A stretch of DNA of 64,000 nt from positions 319,294 to 383,293 of the forward strand of contig JAUIJE010000002.1 in the NCBI GenBank assembly GCA_030431455.1. The letters run 5' to 3'. The notes beneath the pieces were generated by a model. The model did no database searches, was not told the DNA's origin, and saw only the letters and a list, made by a program, of their open reading frames with translations. Shown in pieces: positions 14,200 to 28,709 of the stretch. Numbering within the stretch: position 1 is the stretch's first letter; each line of letters opens with the position of its first letter. Source of the stretch: a bacterium (GTDB taxonomy: Bacteria; Myxococcota; UBA727; JAUIJE01). Made by a program: the position numbers and the translations under genes.

Positions 14200-15816
<1,617 letters not shown>

Positions 15817-15927
15817 GTCCCCCAGGGGGGAAAGTCCCTTCCCCCCTCGTGCGCGGCGCGCGTGTCGCCTCGCACTCACCCGCAACCCTTCTTCCTCGCC
15901 CTCGCTATCCCCCAAAGGAGTACGCCC

Positions 15928-19882: not shown

Positions 19883-20608
19883 ATGCAGCAGGTGTTGGTG
19901 ACGGGGGCCGCGCGCGGCCTGGGCTTGGAGTTTGTGAAGCAATACCTCGCCGACGGGGCCACGGTGTACGCCGGGGTGCGCAGCCCGTGGCGCGCGGACG
20001 AGCTGACCACCTTGGCGGAAAAGAGCGACGGCCGCCTGCACATCGTGGCCTTGGACGTGAGCGACGAGAGCTCCATCGACGCGTGTCTGTCCGAGGTCGC
20101 GGGCAAGACCGACCACCTCGACATCCTGGTGAACAACGCGGGCATCAACTCGAAGAGCCGCGGCATCGAGGACAAGCAACGCAATGTCACGTTTGGGCGG
20201 CTGGAGCCGAGCGGCATCCTCGAGATGGCCCGGGTCAACGCGGTGGCCCCGGTGCTGCTCACCCAGCGCGCCCGCGATTTGCTAGAGGCCGCGGAGGGCG
20301 CCAAGGTGGTGAACATCTCGTCGTGGCTGGGCTCTTGTACGATCAAGGAGAGCGGCGGCAACTATGGCTATGGGGCGAGCAAGGCGATGCTCAACTTCAT
20401 GGGCCGGGCCCTGGCCGGCGACCTCAAAGACAAAGGCATTGTGGTGCTCTTGTTCAACCCCGGCTGGGTCCAGACCGACATGGGGGGGCAGCGCGCGCAG
20501 CTCACCCCCGCGGAGTCGGTGGGCGGCATCCGCGCCGCCGCCGCGCGGGCGACGCTGGCGGACACGGGTTCGTTTTGGAACCACGACGGTTCGGTCCACC
20601 CGTTCTAG
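19883..20608 (+). CDS. Short-chain dehydrogenase/reductase, C-factor/sniffer-like
   Basis: A 241-residue classical SDR. The NAD(P) loop is TGAARGLG (8-15), LVNNAG is intact, and Ser is in NISSWLGS. The catalytic Y163-x-x-x-K167 is in YGYGASK. The overall layout, with a long NVTFGRLEP insert before the active site and WVQTDMGG after it, matches the carbonyl-reductase sniffer/C-factor group, which includes the Myxococcus CsgA protein. GGGGAGG lies upstream of the ATG. The substrate is unknown; a signalling role would be speculative. A structured repeat starts 6 bp after its stop. Confidence 0.9.
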   Translation: MQQVLVTGAARGLGLEFVKQYLADGATVYAGVRSPWRADELTTLAEKSDGRLHIVALDVSDESSIDACLSEVAGKTDHLDILVNNAGINSKSRGIEDKQRNVTFGRLEPSGILEMARVNAVAPVLLTQRARDLLEAAEGAKVVNISSWLGSCTIKESGGNYGYGASKAMLNFMGRALAGDLKDKGIVVLLFNPGWVQTDMGGQRAQLTPAESVGGIRAAAARATLADTGSFWNHDGSVHPF

Positions 20609-20613
20609 CCTTC

Positions 20614-20748
20614 GGGAGGGGATGTCCCATCCCCTCCCCCGCTCACGCTTCGCAAGCTCAGCGAATCGCGGGGCCCCCTCCCAATGTCACTGCTCCAGGC
20701 GGCTCCGCCGCGTCGCAGCTGGTTGCATCCGATGGATGCAACCAGCTG
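20614..20748 (+). repeat. Structured repeat, copy A
   Basis: The order is: hairpin 1 (20614-20638, an 11-bp stem GGGAGGGGATG with a TCC loop), constant box 1 (20642-20668, beginning CTCACGCTTCGC), a spacer holding one CAGTGACATTG site on the minus strand, constant box 2 (20693-20715, beginning CTCCAGGCGG), then hairpin 2 (20716-20748, a perfect 15-bp stem CAGCTGGTTGCATCC with a GAT loop). Copy B at 23115-23240 is inverted. It matches box 1 at 27 of 27 and box 2 at 22 of 23 positions, but has different stems. Confidence 0.85.
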
Positions 20749-20996
20749 AGCCTTTGGTGTGCCTTCGCTTTCGAGCCGGGCGTTCTTCGCAGGGCTTGGC
20801 TTTGATGGAAGTCTGTTCGTTCGGCGTCCACGCCGCCTCACCAGCGTCAAGAGCTTGCGCCATTTGGCTGGACAATGTGGTTTGATCCCATGCCGAGTGG
20901 CATCAGCAACGTAAGCGTTGCCATGTATACGGCCCGCTTAGGTTCAGATGCACAGGCATTTTCGGCGGGGGAATCCCTCCCCCTCAAGAATGAGGC
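20749..20996. other. 248-bp non-coding region rich in small hairpins
   Basis: No gene is supported. Two consecutive hairpins occur: ATGCC/GGCAT at 20890-20903 and GCAACG/CGTTGC at 20906-20921. A GGGGG/CCCCC pair near 20969-20986 could help end def transcription on the minus strand. CAGCTGAGCCT at 20743-20753 recurs inverted at 20994-21004 over the def stop, bounding the region with an 11-bp inverted repeat. Confidence 0.5.
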
Positions 20997-21575
20997 TCAG
21001 CTGCCGTATTTCTCGACGATGGTTTTGACCTCTTTGGCGAACTGCGCTTCCTGGTAGCGCGCGAAGTTCTTCCAGGTGCACAACGTGGTGCGGTCCTCGA
21101 CCCGGTCCAGGAAGAGTTTGCCCTCGAGGTGGTCGACCTCGTGCTGGAAGGTGCCCGCGGTGATGCCGCTGACGGTCTTTTCGTGCGCTTCCCCGTCGCG
21201 ATCGAGGTAGCTGACCTTGATGCGGGCGGCGCGGGTCACGCGGCCGCGCATGTCGGGCACAGACAGGCAGCCCTCGTAGTTTTCGAAGGTCTCGTCGCCG
21301 ATGGGCACGATGCGCGGATTGACCAACACCGTGAGGGGGATGGCCGGCTTGTAGGGATAGCGCGGGTTGTTGGGCCGCACGCAGATGGCGCAGATGCGCA
21401 CGCTCTCGTAGACCTGGTTGGCGGCCAATCCAGCCCCATTGGCATCGAACATGGTCTCGATGAGGTCATCGATGAACCCTTGCCACTTTTCGGTCTGCAG
21501 CTCGACCACGCTCAGCTCGCGGGTGGGTTGGCGCAGCACCGGGGCCCCGACCTGGGCGATCGCGCGGATGGTCAT
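20997..21575 (-). CDS. def: Peptide deformylase
   Basis: A 192-residue metalloenzyme that removes the N-formyl group from nascent proteins. Motif 1 is GAGLAANQ (47-54), motif 2 is EGCLSVP with the metal ligand C103, and motif 3 is QHEVDHLEG with H145, H149 and catalytic E146. A short insert after motif 1 (PNNPRYPYKP) is seen in type III-like enzymes. There is no fmt gene next to it, which is unusual. It follows the aldehyde dehydrogenase gene with only 4 bp between them, so they are co-transcribed, and the pair is flanked by inverted structured repeats. Confidence 0.95.
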   Translation of the reverse strand: MTIRAIAQVGAPVLRQPTRELSVVELQTEKWQGFIDDLIETMFDANGAGLAANQVYESVRICAICVRPNNPRYPYKPAIPLTVLVNPRIVPIGDETFENYEGCLSVPDMRGRVTRAARIKVSYLDRDGEAHEKTVSGITAGTFQHEVDHLEGKLFLDRVEDRTTLCTWKNFARYQEAQFAKEVKTIVEKYGS

Positions 21576-21579
21576 GTGT

Positions 21580-23007
21580 TCACTCCCGACGAAACAGAAA
21601 GCTCGCGATCGATTTTACCTTCTCTCCGCTTTTTCCGTAGAGGGTGCGCATTCCGGCGCGCAAGGCGCGGACCCGGTCGTCGGTGTAGGGGTACCAAAAG
21701 GGCTCTTTGTCGAGGCGGACGGGGACCTGTTCGTAGCTGGTGAACAGCGCCTGGCAGTACTGCCGGAGCCCTTCGGCGCTGTGCGTCACGCCCATCGCGG
21801 ACTGCGCGCCGCCGCCCCAGGGGGCTTCGGGCATGCCGTAGGTCCAGAGCACATCATTTTCCATCACCGTGCTGGCGCGCAGCTGGTCGCGCAGGTGCTT
21901 GGTGCGGCCGGCCTTGGCGAACACGTAGCCGATGAGATCGCCCGGCCCCGCGTTGCAAGCGCGCACCGCGTGTTCGACATCGGGCACTGTGCACACCGCG
22001 GCCACGGGACCAAAACACTCCTCGCGAAAGATGCGCGCGTCTTGGTCATCGCAGGCCAGCAACACCGCGCGCACGTCGTCGCGCCGCTTCTCGACGAGGA
22101 CGCGCCCGCCCCGCGACAAGGCATCGTCGACAAAGGCGTCCACTTCGGCGCGCGCGGCCGGGCTCACCACCGGCGCGAGGTCGCGGGCCTCGTCGATGTC
22201 GCGCGCGGCTTGTTCGATCGCGGACAAGAGCGCGTCCTGTGCCGCGTCCTCGACGAACACCCGCTGCACCCCCGCGCAGACCTGGCCGCCGCCCATGAAC
22301 GCCCCCCACAAGATGCCGCGCGCCGCGCGCCCCATGGGCGCGTCTTTGGTCACGAGGGCCGCGGCCTTGCCCCCGAGCTCGGCCCGGTAGGGCACGCCCG
22401 CGTCGATGCAGAGCTTGGCCACCTCGCGCCCCGCCTGCGTCGAGCCCACGAAGGTCACGTAGTCCACGCCGGCTTTGATCAGGGCCTGGGTGTGTTGTGC
22501 GTCCCCGGTCTCGACCTGCACCAGGTGGGGCGGAAAGCCGGCCTCGGTGAGCCACTCGACGAGCTTGTACGCAGCCTCCACCCGGTGGGGCGACGGCTTG
22601 AGCACCACCGCGTTCTGCGCGGCGATGGCGAACAGGATCTCAGACCCCGCGATGGAGAGCGGAAAGTTGAACGGGGCGATGAGCAAGACCACCCCGCGCG
22701 GCCGGTATACAGTGACATGCCGCTTGTGCGGGGCCACCGCGACCTTGAGCGGCTGGTCCTGCAAAATCTCCGCGGTCTTGTGCATCACAAACCGCGCGCA
22801 CTCCAAAAGCGGCAACAGCTCCGCGGACAGGGCCTCGGCTTCGGGCTTGTGCACCAGCGAAGCGACCTCGCCCACGTCGTGGGTGTGGGCGAGCACGACC
22901 TCGATGAACCGTGCATAGCGAGCGTCCATCTCCGCGCGCGGGGCCGCGGCCCAGAGCCGCTGCGAACCGCGCGCCCGGGCCAACAACTCGTCAAACCCCG
23001 CGCTCAT
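21580..23007 (-). CDS. Aldehyde dehydrogenase family protein
   Basis: A 475-residue NAD(P)-dependent aldehyde dehydrogenase. The general base is E210 in ELGGK and the nucleophile is C244 in GGGQVCAGVQR, at the expected 34-residue spacing. The coenzyme segment IAPFNFPLS and the FVGSTQAGR loop are present, as is EECFGPV. The substrate cannot be read from sequence; the closest style is succinate-semialdehyde or betaine-aldehyde type. It is placed directly upstream of def. Copy B of the structured repeat begins about 108 bp upstream of its start codon. Confidence 0.92.
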   Translation of the reverse strand: MSAGFDELLARARGSQRLWAAAPRAEMDARYARFIEVVLAHTHDVGEVASLVHKPEAEALSAELLPLLECARFVMHKTAEILQDQPLKVAVAPHKRHVTVYRPRGVVLLIAPFNFPLSIAGSEILFAIAAQNAVVLKPSPHRVEAAYKLVEWLTEAGFPPHLVQVETGDAQHTQALIKAGVDYVTFVGSTQAGREVAKLCIDAGVPYRAELGGKAAALVTKDAPMGRAARGILWGAFMGGGQVCAGVQRVFVEDAAQDALLSAIEQAARDIDEARDLAPVVSPAARAEVDAFVDDALSRGGRVLVEKRRDDVRAVLLACDDQDARIFREECFGPVAAVCTVPDVEHAVRACNAGPGDLIGYVFAKAGRTKHLRDQLRASTVMENDVLWTYGMPEAPWGGGAQSAMGVTHSAEGLRQYCQALFTSYEQVPVRLDKEPFWYPYTDDRVRALRAGMRTLYGKSGEKVKSIASFLFRRE

Positions 23008-23114
23008 CCCCCGTGTCTACCACGCCCACCCCGCGGGTGGTCCAGCGACCTCCGAGGCTTGGCCACAAGCGGATCGAACCTCGAAGCCAGAGCGCATTTC
23101 AGAATCGATGGTGT

Positions 23115-23240
23115 GTCGTATGCGACTGCATACGACCCGGACCGACGCGGCGGAGCCGCTTGGAGGACCGTCTCGGGGGTGAGGCCCGATTCGCTGAGCT
23201 TGCGAAGCGTGAGGGCCGAGGGGGGAGGAACTCCCCCCTC
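23115..23240 (-). repeat. Structured repeat, copy B (inverted)
   Basis: Read on the minus strand, the order is the same as copy A: hairpin 1 (23240-23218, 10-bp stem GAGGGGGGAG with a 3-nt loop), box 1 (23213-23187, identical to copy A over 27 bases), box 2 (23165-23143, one mismatch), and hairpin 2 (23136-23115, 9-bp stem GTCGTATGC with a 4-nt loop). Both stems differ from copy A but remain perfectly paired. The two copies face each other around the ALDH-def pair. Confidence 0.85.
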
Positions 23241-23253
23241 AAAAGGCAGGTAC

Positions 23254-24999
23254 TCAGAAGGCGACCCGTTGTTCGTCGACAATGGTCTGCACCCGATCCG
23301 TGGGCTGCTTCGGCGGGTTCTGGGTGGTGGCGTCGACGATCTTTTTGAACGTCTCTTCCGCCTGCGCCTTCACCTTCTCCTCGGTGGGACCACACCTTTT
23401 CGCCAGGGCGGCCTCGAGCTTCTCTTCGATCGCTTCGAGCTTGGCCTCGGCCTTTTCCTTTTTGTCCTCGTCGTCGCCGGCCTTTTCCACCTTGGCCTCG
23501 GCGCGGCGGATCTTGCTCGCGTAGCTCTTTTCGAGCTTGCTGACGCATTTTTTGAGCTTCTTCACGTTCTTGTCGGTGGGCTTTTCGTCCTCGCCGCAGC
23601 CCTTCCACTTGAACGTCGGCGCGGGGGTCACCTCACTCGACGGGTTGACCAGCGCGTCCTTGCGCACATCGACCAGCGACCCGTCGAGCTTCATGAGCTG
23701 CATCTTGTCGTCGGTGGGGGGCGTGACCCGCGTGATCAGGTGCGTCTCGCCGGCAAACATCGCGAGGCTGCCCGGAATCGGGTTGGTGAACACCGACTCG
23801 CTCCACTCGAACGCGCACCGGCTTGGCGGCAAAACCCCCATGTACGTGGTCACGAACTTGGGCACGTCCGCGCGCGGCCAGCCCACGGTGGTGTAGCGCA
23901 GGGCGTTGCGCGCCGACTTCCCGCTGAACTTGATCGTGCCTTTGACCGTCGACTTCTCCGTCGTGCACACCCCTTCGAGCCGGTACAGCCCAGGGGCGTC
24001 GGGGCCGACGGAGAAGGGCTGCACGACCTTCTTTCGTTTTTCGCTCCAGGACACGTCCTTGACCGCGGTGTCCGACGGGGACACGTCGCGCAGCACCACC
24101 GCGTAGCACCAGTTCGGCTCGGCTTTGATCGTCACCGCGAGCTTGTTCTTCTTGACCACCCCGTCCTTGACGAACCCGGCCTCGAGGCGGGCGGCGACCT
24201 TCTCGCCCCGGCCCTTTTTGTCCTCCAAGAACGCGTTGGCCACCCGGAGGTGGCGTGAGGTCCGCAAGTACGCCCCCGACAGCACCGCGTCCTGGGCCGC
24301 CATGTCGTTGGCCGCGGCGATCAAGTCCGCGAACGCCTCGTCGGGGAGCGGGTCCTCGGCGCCCTTGAGCTTCTCGAACAACAGCTTCCGGCTCGCGTTG
24401 CCTTTGTCGATCGCGGCCTTGAGCGCTTCGGATTTCGCCGCCGCCTCGGCCGCGGCTTTGCGCTCGGCCGCGATCTTCTCCGCCTTCTTCTGGTGCTCGC
24501 GCCACATCTTGGCCTTGTCCGAGAAGAACGTCAGCACCGGTTGCCACCCCGGCCCCGCCCCCGCGGAGAAGTCCGCCATCGCCTTGTCGTGTGCGATCCA
24601 GTCAGATTGGCTCGCTGGCTCTCCACGGTTCAGCTTGTCACGAATCAACGCTTGGGCCGCGGACACCGCCTGGGCCTTCTCCGCCACCGCGATCTGCCCG
24701 TTGAGCCGGGCGATGTTGGCCTGGACCTTGGAGAACGCATCCCCCGCCGACTTGTGCTTGCCGGTGAGATCGCCCACCACCCCGTCGACGAGGGAGCGGG
24801 ACTTGTCGATGTTGTTCTTCTCCTCGGCGGGGTCGGCGCCGTACCGCTTGGGCAGGACGTCGTACGCTTCTTTGAGCTTCTCGTTGAGCTCTTTGAGCTT
24901 GGCCTCGGCGTCGTCGGCGGACATCTCTTGGCCGGTGGCGGCGGGGCTGAGCCCAAACACCAGCAACGCGACAAGAACGGATCGGATCGTAGCTGCCAT
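23254..24999 (-). CDS. Exported coiled-coil protein of unknown function
   Basis: A 581-residue protein. A signal peptide (MAATIRSVLVALLVFGLSPAATG) is followed by about 200 residues of charged helix rich in Ala, Lys and Glu, such as DDAEAKLKELNEKLKEAYD, which should form coiled coils. The middle (about 280-460) is beta-rich with a few cysteines (NWCYAVVL, CTTEKST, SRCAFEW). The C-terminal 110 residues are again Lys/Glu-rich helix. This is an envelope protein by its signal peptide. It has no recognisable enzymatic motif; a structural or periplasm-spanning role is only inference. Confidence 0.72.
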   Translation of the reverse strand: MAATIRSVLVALLVFGLSPAATGQEMSADDAEAKLKELNEKLKEAYDVLPKRYGADPAEEKNNIDKSRSLVDGVVGDLTGKHKSAGDAFSKVQANIARLNGQIAVAEKAQAVSAAQALIRDKLNRGEPASQSDWIAHDKAMADFSAGAGPGWQPVLTFFSDKAKMWREHQKKAEKIAAERKAAAEAAAKSEALKAAIDKGNASRKLLFEKLKGAEDPLPDEAFADLIAAANDMAAQDAVLSGAYLRTSRHLRVANAFLEDKKGRGEKVAARLEAGFVKDGVVKKNKLAVTIKAEPNWCYAVVLRDVSPSDTAVKDVSWSEKRKKVVQPFSVGPDAPGLYRLEGVCTTEKSTVKGTIKFSGKSARNALRYTTVGWPRADVPKFVTTYMGVLPPSRCAFEWSESVFTNPIPGSLAMFAGETHLITRVTPPTDDKMQLMKLDGSLVDVRKDALVNPSSEVTPAPTFKWKGCGEDEKPTDKNVKKLKKCVSKLEKSYASKIRRAEAKVEKAGDDEDKKEKAEAKLEAIEEKLEAALAKRCGPTEEKVKAQAEETFKKIVDATTQNPPKQPTDRVQTIVDEQRVAF

Positions 25000-25123
25000 G
25001 GGCGGGAGCTTTGCACATCGACGGGGCCCAGAAAAAGAAACGGGGTTCGTCGACGACCAGCCCCGCCCGGCCACCGGTGGCGCCACGTGGCCCCCACCGG
25101 CGACAATGCTCACGCGGCCCGGG

Positions 25124-26168: not shown

Positions 26169-28709
26169 ATGTTGCGCGCGTTGTGTGGGGTGCTCGTCGC
26201 GGCCGCGATGCTGCTGGTGACGTCCGGTTGTTCGTTCTTTTTGTTGGTCGGGCCTTCTTGCCCGGACGACTGCCCCGCGGCCGCGTGCCGCGACGACGGG
26301 ACCTGTGCCCCCGGTGACGGGGACGGTGACGGCGACGGTGACGGTGACGGGGATGGTGACGGCGACGGGGATGGTGACGGTGACGGCGACGGCGACGGGG
26401 ATGGTGACGGTGACGGGGATGGTGACGGCGACGGTGACGGCGACGGCGACGGCGACGGGGACGGGGACGGGGATGGCGACGGCGACGGGGATGGTGACGG
26501 GGACGGGGATGGCGACGGCGACGGGTTTTGTGATGCGGGCGCGGTGTGCCCGCTGAACGGGGTGTTTGATCCGGCGCTGGCCCGGGTGGCGTCGGATGCC
26601 CCGTTCGCGACCGGCCTGTTGATCGACCCCGGCGACCGGTTGGTCGTCGACCAAGGGCCGGCGTTGACCGGCACGTTCAGCCAGACCGTGGACACCCGCC
26701 AAGGCACGCTGATCGCGTGGATGACCCCGCTGAGCCCGGTGGCGGACCTGAGCGCGCCGACGGTGTTGTTCGACCTCGCGGGGGGGCTTTTGGTGACCAT
26801 CCAGCCAGGCGGCGGCCTCGAGGTCAGCGTCAACGGCGCGCCCGTCGCCCTGTGGAACAACGTGCTCGCCACCCTGGTGCCGGGCGCCGACCGGCTCATC
26901 ATCCTGCGGTGGAACGCGCGCGCACCCGTGCTCGGCAGCGCGCACCTCAGCCTCACGGTCGGGGGCACCGGGCCCAACGCCCCCGACGAGTTCGGCACCA
27001 CCGCGTGGGTCCCGCCCGCGCCGGCCGGTCCGGTGGTGATCGGCGATGCCAACGGCACCGTGAGTTATGTGGTCGAGGGCCTCACCCTGTACCGGCGGGT
27101 ACTGTACCACGCGGCCACGGACTCGGGCACCGACGTGCGCGGCGATGAGATAGGCCCCCTGATCAACAACGGCAACGTCGACCCCGTCGACGTGACCGGG
27201 TCCTGGGACGTCACGTTGGCGTTGCCGCTCGACACGCTCGTGGGCCGGGACGACCAAAGCGCGCCCGACGCGTGGACCCATCCCCACGCGCAGACCATCA
27301 CCCCCGGCGCGCCGTTTCTGGGCAGCGGCGGCGGGGCCTGGGAAGCGTTCGACACCGCCACGATCACCGACGCCCCCGAGGCCGACAACCTGTACGGCAC
27401 GTCGGTGGTGCTCACCGTGCCCACTGGCGATCAGGGCGACGCCGGGCTCCGGTACGAACGCCCGGCCGAGGCGGGTCAAAGCTACGTCGCGCGGGCGGTG
27501 ATGCACGGGCTCAACGGGGTGCGGCCGGCGTTGAGCATGTTCTACGTGTCGCCGGGCGGGGACGTCGACGAGCTCGATCGCTGGGTGGCGGACACCCCCG
27601 GCAGCCTCGAGCACCCGGTCGAGATCTTGATCGCGGACGACATCATCGTCGACACCGGCACGGTGGAGTTCTGGATCGACGGCAACCAGCCCGGCGACGT
27701 CGTGGTCCACCACGCCGCGGTCTACGCCAATCGCCTGACCGACCCCGGCTTCGAGGGCGACGGCCAGGGCTGGACCGCGCAGGACACGTCCAACGACTAC
27801 GGCATCGAAGGCACCGCCCAGTCGGGCAACGTCCTCATCGGATACCAGTCGTGGCGGGTCGAGTGCTTCGACGCCGACAGCCAGTGCAGCATGCGCCAAG
27901 CCCCGAGCGGCCTGGTCGACGGGCGGTTCTATGGCGTGGGCGGCTTTTTGCAGGCCCTCCCCGGGGCCCAAGCCGGCTTTGTGGTGACCAACGGCTCGCT
28001 CTTTCGCCAGACCTTGCCCTACGGCACCGAGGCCAAGATCGGCGTGCTCGGCACCGCCACGACCTGGCGGCACCGCACCACCGTCGGCCGCCGCCGGATG
28101 TCCCCCGCGCTCAACGCCCACAACGACAACATCCTGTTCGGCGCGCCCCAGTTCGACGCCCAGAGCGCCGGCGCGTACATCGACAACACCTACGTGGTGG
28201 CCCTCGACGACGTCACCCTCGACGAGCAGCCCGCGCCCGCCGGCGACACCGGGCCCGGCGCGTTCGTCTTCGTCGACGGCGCGGACGAACTTGTGTTCCC
28301 CGTGAGCGGCCGCTTCGAGATGGAGCTGCAAAACGGCCGCGGTCCCTCGGACCCCGCGGGCCGCTGCGGGTTGGCCCACGACTTCGTGCGCCTGGTGGAC
28401 GACCTCGCCGCCCCCACCCAAGGCCTGTTGCTCGAGATCCGCGCCGGGGGCGCCCTGCGCTTCACTGACGTCGCCACCCTCGCCAACACCGCCACCAACC
28501 AGACCATCGCCACCGGCGACATCGCGCGGCTGCGCATCGACCTGACCGGCAACAACGTCGTGGTCGCGCTCCCCGCCCAGGGATACTCCCAGTCGGTCCC
28601 CCTCCAGGGCGCGGCGACCGCCCTGACCGCCGCCGTCATCACCCGCCGCACCGATCCCGGGGATTGCCCCGTCGGGGTCCGGCGCCCGGGCGTGGTGCCG
28701 CTGCCCTGA
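26169..28709 (+). CDS. Large lipoprotein with (Gly-Asp)35 linker
   Basis: An 846-residue protein. The signal peptide ends LVTSGC with lipidated C21, followed by a short Cys-rich segment (CPDDCPAAACRDDGTC). Then comes an uninterrupted 71-residue Gly-Asp tract. The remaining about 725 residues are beta-rich, with repeated jelly-roll-like stretches typical of LamG/carbohydrate-binding modules (for example GTLIAWMTPLSP and LTDPGFEGDGQGW), and no catalytic motif. It is surface-anchored by inference; the acidic linker would be extended and could bind calcium. A second lipoprotein with the same layout is at 41226. Confidence 0.8.
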   Translation: MLRALCGVLVAAAMLLVTSGCSFFLLVGPSCPDDCPAAACRDDGTCAPGDGDGDGDGDGDGDGDGDGDGDGDGDGDGDGDGDGDGDGDGDGDGDGDGDGDGDGDGDGDGDGDGDGDGDGFCDAGAVCPLNGVFDPALARVASDAPFATGLLIDPGDRLVVDQGPALTGTFSQTVDTRQGTLIAWMTPLSPVADLSAPTVLFDLAGGLLVTIQPGGGLEVSVNGAPVALWNNVLATLVPGADRLIILRWNARAPVLGSAHLSLTVGGTGPNAPDEFGTTAWVPPAPAGPVVIGDANGTVSYVVEGLTLYRRVLYHAATDSGTDVRGDEIGPLINNGNVDPVDVTGSWDVTLALPLDTLVGRDDQSAPDAWTHPHAQTITPGAPFLGSGGGAWEAFDTATITDAPEADNLYGTSVVLTVPTGDQGDAGLRYERPAEAGQSYVARAVMHGLNGVRPALSMFYVSPGGDVDELDRWVADTPGSLEHPVEILIADDIIVDTGTVEFWIDGNQPGDVVVHHAAVYANRLTDPGFEGDGQGWTAQDTSNDYGIEGTAQSGNVLIGYQSWRVECFDADSQCSMRQAPSGLVDGRFYGVGGFLQALPGAQAGFVVTNGSLFRQTLPYGTEAKIGVLGTATTWRHRTTVGRRRMSPALNAHNDNILFGAPQFDAQSAGAYIDNTYVVALDDVTLDEQPAPAGDTGPGAFVFVDGADELVFPVSGRFEMELQNGRGPSDPAGRCGLAHDFVRLVDDLAAPTQGLLLEIRAGGALRFTDVATLANTATNQTIATGDIARLRIDLTGNNVVVALPAQGYSQSVPLQGAATALTAAVITRRTDPGDCPVGVRRPGVVPLP
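26313..26525 (+). repeat. Gly-Asp dipeptide tract, 213 bp
   Basis: Thirty-five GGN-GAY units plus a final GGG inside the lipoprotein gene. Third bases vary (GGT, GGC, GGG; mostly GAC). All seven GAT codons follow GGG, which suggests expansion by duplication of longer units as well as six-base slippage. Confidence 0.9.

Follow-up and report, generated by a model that had tools for sequence, protein, structure and literature searches.

A probable family of dispersed, composite REP/BIME-like palindromic units at gene ends in a Myxococcota genome

The stretch of DNA analysed here (the window; 64,000 nucleotides of contig JAUIJE010000002.1) contains two inverted copies of a hairpin-rich repeat, copy A (20609-20748, + strand) and copy B (23087-23240, - strand), and the question is what these copies are and whether the pairing of their stems is maintained at the DNA or the RNA level. 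As stated in a preliminary description of this locus, a 27-nt box, CTCACGCTTCGCAAGCTCAGCGAATCG, is identical between A (20642-20668, +) and B (23187-23213, -), and a 23-nt box, CTCCA[G/A]GCGGCTCCGCCGCGTCG, shows a single mismatch between A (20693-20715) and B (23143-23165). The 23-nt core of the 27-nt box is found twice in the window with up to three mismatches, versus 0 expected from 100 shuffles. The boxes are intergenic. The hairpins that flank them are perfect, as also reported, with 11 bp (H1, 20614-20638, +) and 15 bp (H5, 20716-20748, +) in A, and 10 bp (H1, 23218-23240, -) and 9 bp (H5, 23115-23136, -) in B. Two statements require revision. The boxes were regarded as constant, but both are hairpins themselves, the 27-nt box lying within H2 and the 23-nt box within H4, and each has a stem that varies between the copies in the genome. 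The flanking stems were regarded as completely different in sequence; each indeed pairs, but H1 is G-rich in both copies.

Copy A begins directly after the TAG stop codon (20606-20608, +; sequence and gene call) of an SDR gene (19883-20608, +; Pfam adh_short), which is preceded by C to give CTAG, and its H1 begins 6 nt past this stop. H2 of copy A (20638-20672, +) consists of an outer stem, an internal loop TCA/ARTC, an inner stem CGCT/AGCG and the loop TCGCAAGCTC. H4 (20690-20718, +) consists of an outer stem CTGC/GCAG, a TC/TC mismatch and an inner stem GCGGC/GCCGC, and its outer arm is overlapped by the base of H5 for 3 nt. H1 of copy B begins 13 nt past the TGA stop codon of the gene at 23254-25113 (-), which has no Pfam match. 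H2 of copy B (23183-23217, -) shares its loop and inner stem with H2 of A but differs in the outer stem, H4 (23140-23168, -) contains the 23-nt box, and the stem of H5 is GTCGTATGC/GCATACGAC. A and B represent different stem subtypes.

The 7.7-Mb genome (28 contigs), whose deformylase has its best relatives in Polyangia/Myxococcota, was searched for further copies. The core of the 27-nt box gives 11 matches and the 27-nt pattern with its stem bases left free gives 31, the reversed pattern giving 0 in either search. A covariance model of the 27-nt box hairpin H2 (model R1) gives 47 matches with E<0.02 and four partial ones; it matches H2 of A at 20635-20675 with 60.2 bits and H2 of B at 23180-23220 with 67.3 bits. 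The copies are dispersed at unrelated genes and are nearly all intergenic. R1 has 0 matches in 194 further genomes from this phylum, none of which belongs to the same genus or family, and no copies are found in viral contigs, plasmids and phages. Pattern matches in two relatives (L152 and L154) have 2 motif-breaking mismatches and were taken as chance matches.

All copies that were read follow one blueprint of ~130-160 nt, which is, from 5' to 3', H1, H2, a C-rich spacer, H4 and H5. H1 is a G-rich hairpin of the forms GGGGGGAGTTCCTCCCCCC, ..ATGTCCCAT.., ..CTGTCCCAG.. and ..CGCAGG... Family-wide, H2 consists of an outer stem, the internal loop TCA/ARTC, an inner stem CGNN/NNCG and the loop TCGCAAGCTC (variants TCGCGAGCTC and TCCTAAAGTC); H4 consists of an outer stem, the TC/TC mismatch and an inner stem with a short loop; and H5 usually has at least 9 bp and a loop of 3-6 nt. 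By reading, the TC/TC opposition recurs in both H2 internal loops and in H4. Tandem variant units at L286:4500-4900 consist of H1, the module X described below, and H4-like and H5-like hairpins without H2, so that the H2 model does not capture the whole family. We hold with moderate confidence that these units represent a dispersed, non-autonomous, composite family of REP/BIME-like palindromes, which is private to this lineage, whose mobiliser has been lost or is unrecognised, and which has been invaded by X as a nested 43-nt double-hairpin module.

Alignment of the copies confirms that their stems change and that pairing is kept, as the preliminary description had anticipated. In the ungapped alignment of H2 (26 distinct sequences), 92.3% of the cells are paired, versus 66.0% in shuffled and at most 50.9% in slid alignments, and 61 cells are changed on both sides, versus 23.1 in shuffled ones; 20 different outer arm pairs are present. 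For H4 and H5 (17 copies), 94.4% of the cells are paired, versus 76.1% (shuffled) and at most 39% (slid), and 65 cells are changed on both sides, versus 23.5 (shuffled). The stem compensation in H2, H4 and H5 is real, and the cells that carry it are not independent events, because the copies form subfamilies.

A sense-strand RNA should tolerate a G.U pair but not a C.A pair, whereas duplex DNA makes no difference between them. The aligned H2, H4, H5 and X cells comprise 951 Watson-Crick, 14 G.U, 14 C.A and 36 other pairs, the 28 G.U and C.A cells being derived from related copies. A small control on six tRNAs encoded in the loci analysed, limited to their acceptor and T stems, gives 9 G.U and 0 C.A; given 14 of 37, finding 0 C.A in 9 has a probability of ~0.007 as computed by hand. 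Because G.U and C.A are equally frequent (14:14), the pairs tolerated in RNA are not preferred, and hairpin copying at the DNA level explains the pattern no less well. This result favours maintenance of pairing at the DNA level, either by template switching or by recognition of folded single-stranded DNA. The divergence with pairing described for A and B holds genome-wide, but does not have to mean selection on structure. Compensatory changes of several bases are documented to arise when the template is switched from one hairpin arm to the other (PMC8794818), and TnpA-REP recognises folded single-stranded DNA (PMC8266576). The presence of many copies with different stems in one genome provides a natural test between RNA selection and the copying of one hairpin arm from the other in DNA; the equal counts favour arm copying, with the warning that covariation alone is no proof of RNA.

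The units may instead be structured 3'-UTR RNAs, which are bound by a protein or which stabilise or terminate transcripts, their compensatory changes reflecting selection on RNA. The predicted RNA folding is strong (z of -6.2 and -4.5), and the internal loops with conserved unpaired bases (TCA/ARTC, the constant 10-nt loop and the TC/TC mismatches) are RNA-like. In contrast, the 14:14 ratio and the absence of G.U among 216 paired cells of H2 argue against this reading, as does the absence of Rfam matches at gathering score in the window region and at nine other loci.

Gene context was examined with a codon-usage gene caller on ~458 kb around the copies. The upstream gene is on the same strand, so that the unit lies in sense 3' of the gene, for 48 of the 50 placed matches, including a weak match at C8:276933 that overlaps a gene call. 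The two exceptions are located at a contig start (C20:17) and in antisense (C18:682403). Units in co-directional gaps are 24 in sense and 1 in antisense (22:1 when each gap is counted once), and none of the 50 placed matches lies between divergent genes. The distance from the stop codon to the start of the H2 model is mostly 25-28 nt for single copies and first units, which means that H1 begins 4-8 nt past the stop (13 nt in B). The stop codons followed by a unit are TAG in 26, TGA in 13 and TAA in 1 case, versus 76, 241 and 20 for those without a unit (p ~1e-7), and CTAG is present at 19/40 stops with a unit versus 29/337 without (p ~6e-9). The tetranucleotides at the 40 unit-bearing stops include CTAG (19), CTGA (11), TTAG (4) and GTAG (3).

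The strict sense orientation and the constant distance from the stop agree with a 3'-UTR RNA. A T run, by which H1 would resemble an intrinsic terminator, is absent after H1 in both A and B, while ordinary T-tailed terminators are present elsewhere in the genome. The placement also bears on the earlier proposal that A and B, which face each other around the aldehyde dehydrogenase and def genes, together bound a single mobile segment that carries these genes. A follows the SDR gene and B follows the gene at 23254-25113 (-), so that each lies 3' of its own upstream gene like nearly all other copies; the two belong to different stem subtypes, and the other copies, which are single or arranged head-to-tail in tandem, flank no segments. 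A and B are independent copies, and it is extremely improbable that they delimit such a segment.

Two other relations to gene ends were considered. Truncation of genes by units that supply a stop codon is not favoured, the C-terminus of the SDR protein looking typical of its family by reading only. The tmRNA-like match beside the L217 copies is a 53-nt fragment and was therefore not taken to indicate targeting of tRNA ends. This fragment (L217:5282-5334, -) resembles a tmRNA 3' end, is located directly upstream of two tandem units and is perhaps the remnant of an att site.

Several arrangements of the units suggest mobility or amplification. The end of contig C6 (L243:1-445) is a perfect tandem array of identical 159-nt units, the first of which begins at a stop codon, and the start of contig C20 (L244:1-100) falls inside the same 159-nt unit, so that the array probably broke the assembly there. 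The copy at C18:320431 is flanked by exact 26-bp direct repeats ending in CTAG, and that at C18:682403 lies within a repeat of ~47 bp; target duplications are absent at most copies. Module X, a 43-nt double hairpin (TGGCCATTCCGAAGGAATGGCTTGAGCAACGCGAAGCGTTGCC and stem variants), is present in ~40 copies in this genome, with just two single near-matches in 194 other genomes, neither of them convincing. It is located inside or beside units in 29 of the 39 cases checked, at several positions in the units, once in the H5 loop (L035) and, in L022 and L237, in inverted orientation inside H1. Where paralogous units were compared by reading (L014/L024 and L017/L240), X is inserted cleanly and with no obvious duplication. 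A fixed RNA fold would hardly tolerate tandem arrays and X at several places, and a 3'-UTR RNA is a possible but rather unlikely identity for the units.

Transposition may not be involved at all, if hairpins at gene ends are copied by replication errors (template switching, slippage and palindrome recombination) and their stems are homogenised in place. The perfection of the arms despite many different stems, the unequal length of the direct repeats around the two copies mentioned above, the failure to find a mobiliser and the documented role of template switching in compensatory change are consistent with this. Site-specific insertion is suggested instead by the constant 5' start beside CTAG or CTGA stops in most copies and by the positions of X, which on reading are clean and precise, and replication error as the sole origin of the family is quite improbable.

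X is similar in architecture to double-hairpin elements of fungal mitochondria, whose stems reportedly differ with pairing kept and which are said to be inserted in other palindromes. Both consist of two short hairpins with varied, paired stems that lie within other palindromes, whereas X is bacterial and GC-rich and has one nearly constant hairpin. The fungal elements are those attributed to Paquin et al. 2000 in a citation in PMC5910586.

A mobilising enzyme was sought in the genome. Y1 transposase (PF01797) is absent, and the RAYT model NF047646 detects one ORF, below its cut-off (L283:958-1989, -; C24:128335), which, when scanned alone, scores 23.1 bits against Y1_Tnp (cut-off 23) and has a C-terminus resembling DnaA. 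Judging from its sequence, this ORF appears to have lost the His-x-His (HUH) and Tyr motifs; it is possibly a domesticated DNA-binding protein of the Y1 family. No R1 match lies near it. A RAYT-type enzyme encoded elsewhere, which the preliminary description proposed to look for, is thus not present in standard form, and the only ORF that resembles it is degenerate, distant and without neighbouring copies. An origin from a group II intron or retron was discarded, as no reverse transcriptase (RVT_1) is present in the genome, and so was an identity with integron attC sites, whose core 7-mers do not fit.

The genome does contain an IS5-family element (L262:1596-2368, -; L281; L282), whose transposase is encoded in two frames (DUF4096 and DDE_Tnp_1) and is present in two copies, and whose ends adjoin CTAG. 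A decayed left end of this family (20766-20872, +; blastn) directly follows copy A, with 76-86% identity to the genome's other copies, among them those next to the transposase ORFs. The earlier statement that no transposase is present is accordingly correct for a transposase gene, but overlooks this remnant. About 14 units, B among them, end in a sequence like the IS5-family right end; the tail of B, GATTCTGAAATGCGCTCTGG (23087-23106, -), is identical at 18/20 positions to that right end in L262 (GATTCTGAGATGCGCTCTAG), as compared by reading. A second short dispersed element of ~87 nt, CTAG|TGTCCAGCGACGAGACGCCCGATCGGGCGCTCGTCGTGGCC...GATTTTGAGATGCGCTCTAG, was observed in L261, L262, L264, L266 and L269 (~1300-1600); it is located at CTAG stop codons, is tandem in L266 and has a right end that matches that of the IS5 family.

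These similarities raise the possibility that the units are MITEs, moved in trans by the resident IS5-family transposase, which would act through the tail GRTTTTGRGATGYGCTCTAG and on targets with CTAG. CTAG adjoins the IS, its short derivative and the units alike, two transposase copies are available, and some units resemble IS5-family MITEs in having CTAG beside both ends and, in a subset, a similar right terminal sequence. Unlike such MITEs, the whole unit has no terminal inverted repeats, its left end having no match to the right, and the parent IS is matched only at the right end of a subset of copies, most units being without the tail. Mobilisation by this transposase is therefore very improbable.

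In behaviour and in placement, the family resembles REP/BIME repeats. REPs are located between co-directional or convergent genes and close to stop codons, and supply TAG stops (PMC3733652), and TnpA-REP requires stem mismatches and cuts at CT (PMC8266576). The units resemble the GTAG and CGTC superfamilies of REPs and BIMEs in being many dispersed extragenic palindromes in one genome (47 copies here), in lying in co-directional or convergent gaps within ~20 bp of stops, often touching TAG, and in having conserved stem mismatches, tandem or grouped copies and a lineage-private distribution. They differ in that each unit contains four different hairpins in ~130-160 nt, whereas a REP is one hairpin of 20-40 nt, and in their 24:1 sense orientation. 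An unpaired GTAG or CGTC tag at one end of the palindrome, in the sense of these REPs, is not apparent; the GTCG after H4 belongs to the stem that the TC/TC mismatch interrupts, and so does not stand free as a CGTC tag. GTAG-type REPs also have an intact RAYT flanked by copies (CGTC REPs have no RAYT), which is likewise absent here. As it has neither the tag nor an intact RAYT, the family is called a REP/BIME variant rather than a member. With it, the range of REP-like palindromic repeats grows to include a Myxococcota lineage, where their form is unusually complex, with four hairpins and no intact RAYT.

We propose that DNA, probably single-stranded and folded, is the form in which the units would spread, and that they would insert on the 3' side of CTAG- or CTGA-type sequences, by which the gene would be left intact. 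The complementarity of their hairpin arms would be maintained in the DNA, through template switching between the arms during replication, through recognition of single strands in folded form, or through both, and not mainly by RNA selection, and the mobilising enzyme may have been lost or may be unrecognised. H1 would be transcribed a few nucleotides past the stop, with a probable effect on the 3' ends of mRNAs or on the termination of translation. This suggestion is based on the position of H1 and on the REPs of E. coli, which, according to a summary in PMC12306157, stall ribosomes when they lie within 15 nt of stop codons; in the units, H1 begins 4-8 nt past the stop in most copies. A bolder version, which we regard as unlikely, is that the units represent a new class of single-stranded DNA hairpin element, inserted strand-specifically at C-TAG/C-TGA gene ends by a non-Y1 enzyme and recognised through the TC/TC stem mismatches and the constant loop, with the second, 43-nt double-hairpin element targeting its hairpins.

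Three other features of the window were observed. A stop-proximal G-rich hairpin at 15816-15885 (GACTAG GTCCCCCAGGGGGGAAAGTCCCTTCCCCCC), followed by a sequence that is repeated elsewhere in the genome, lacks the H2 box and is a relative of the A/B repeat family. The region 20885-20996, 3' of def (reverse strand), contains a hairpin like H1 and a palindrome like X (GGCAACGCTTACGTTGC) and is probably a diverged relative of the family in the orientation opposite to A. A long Gly-Asp (GD)n coding repeat is present at ~26290-26560 within the ORF at 26169-28709 (+).
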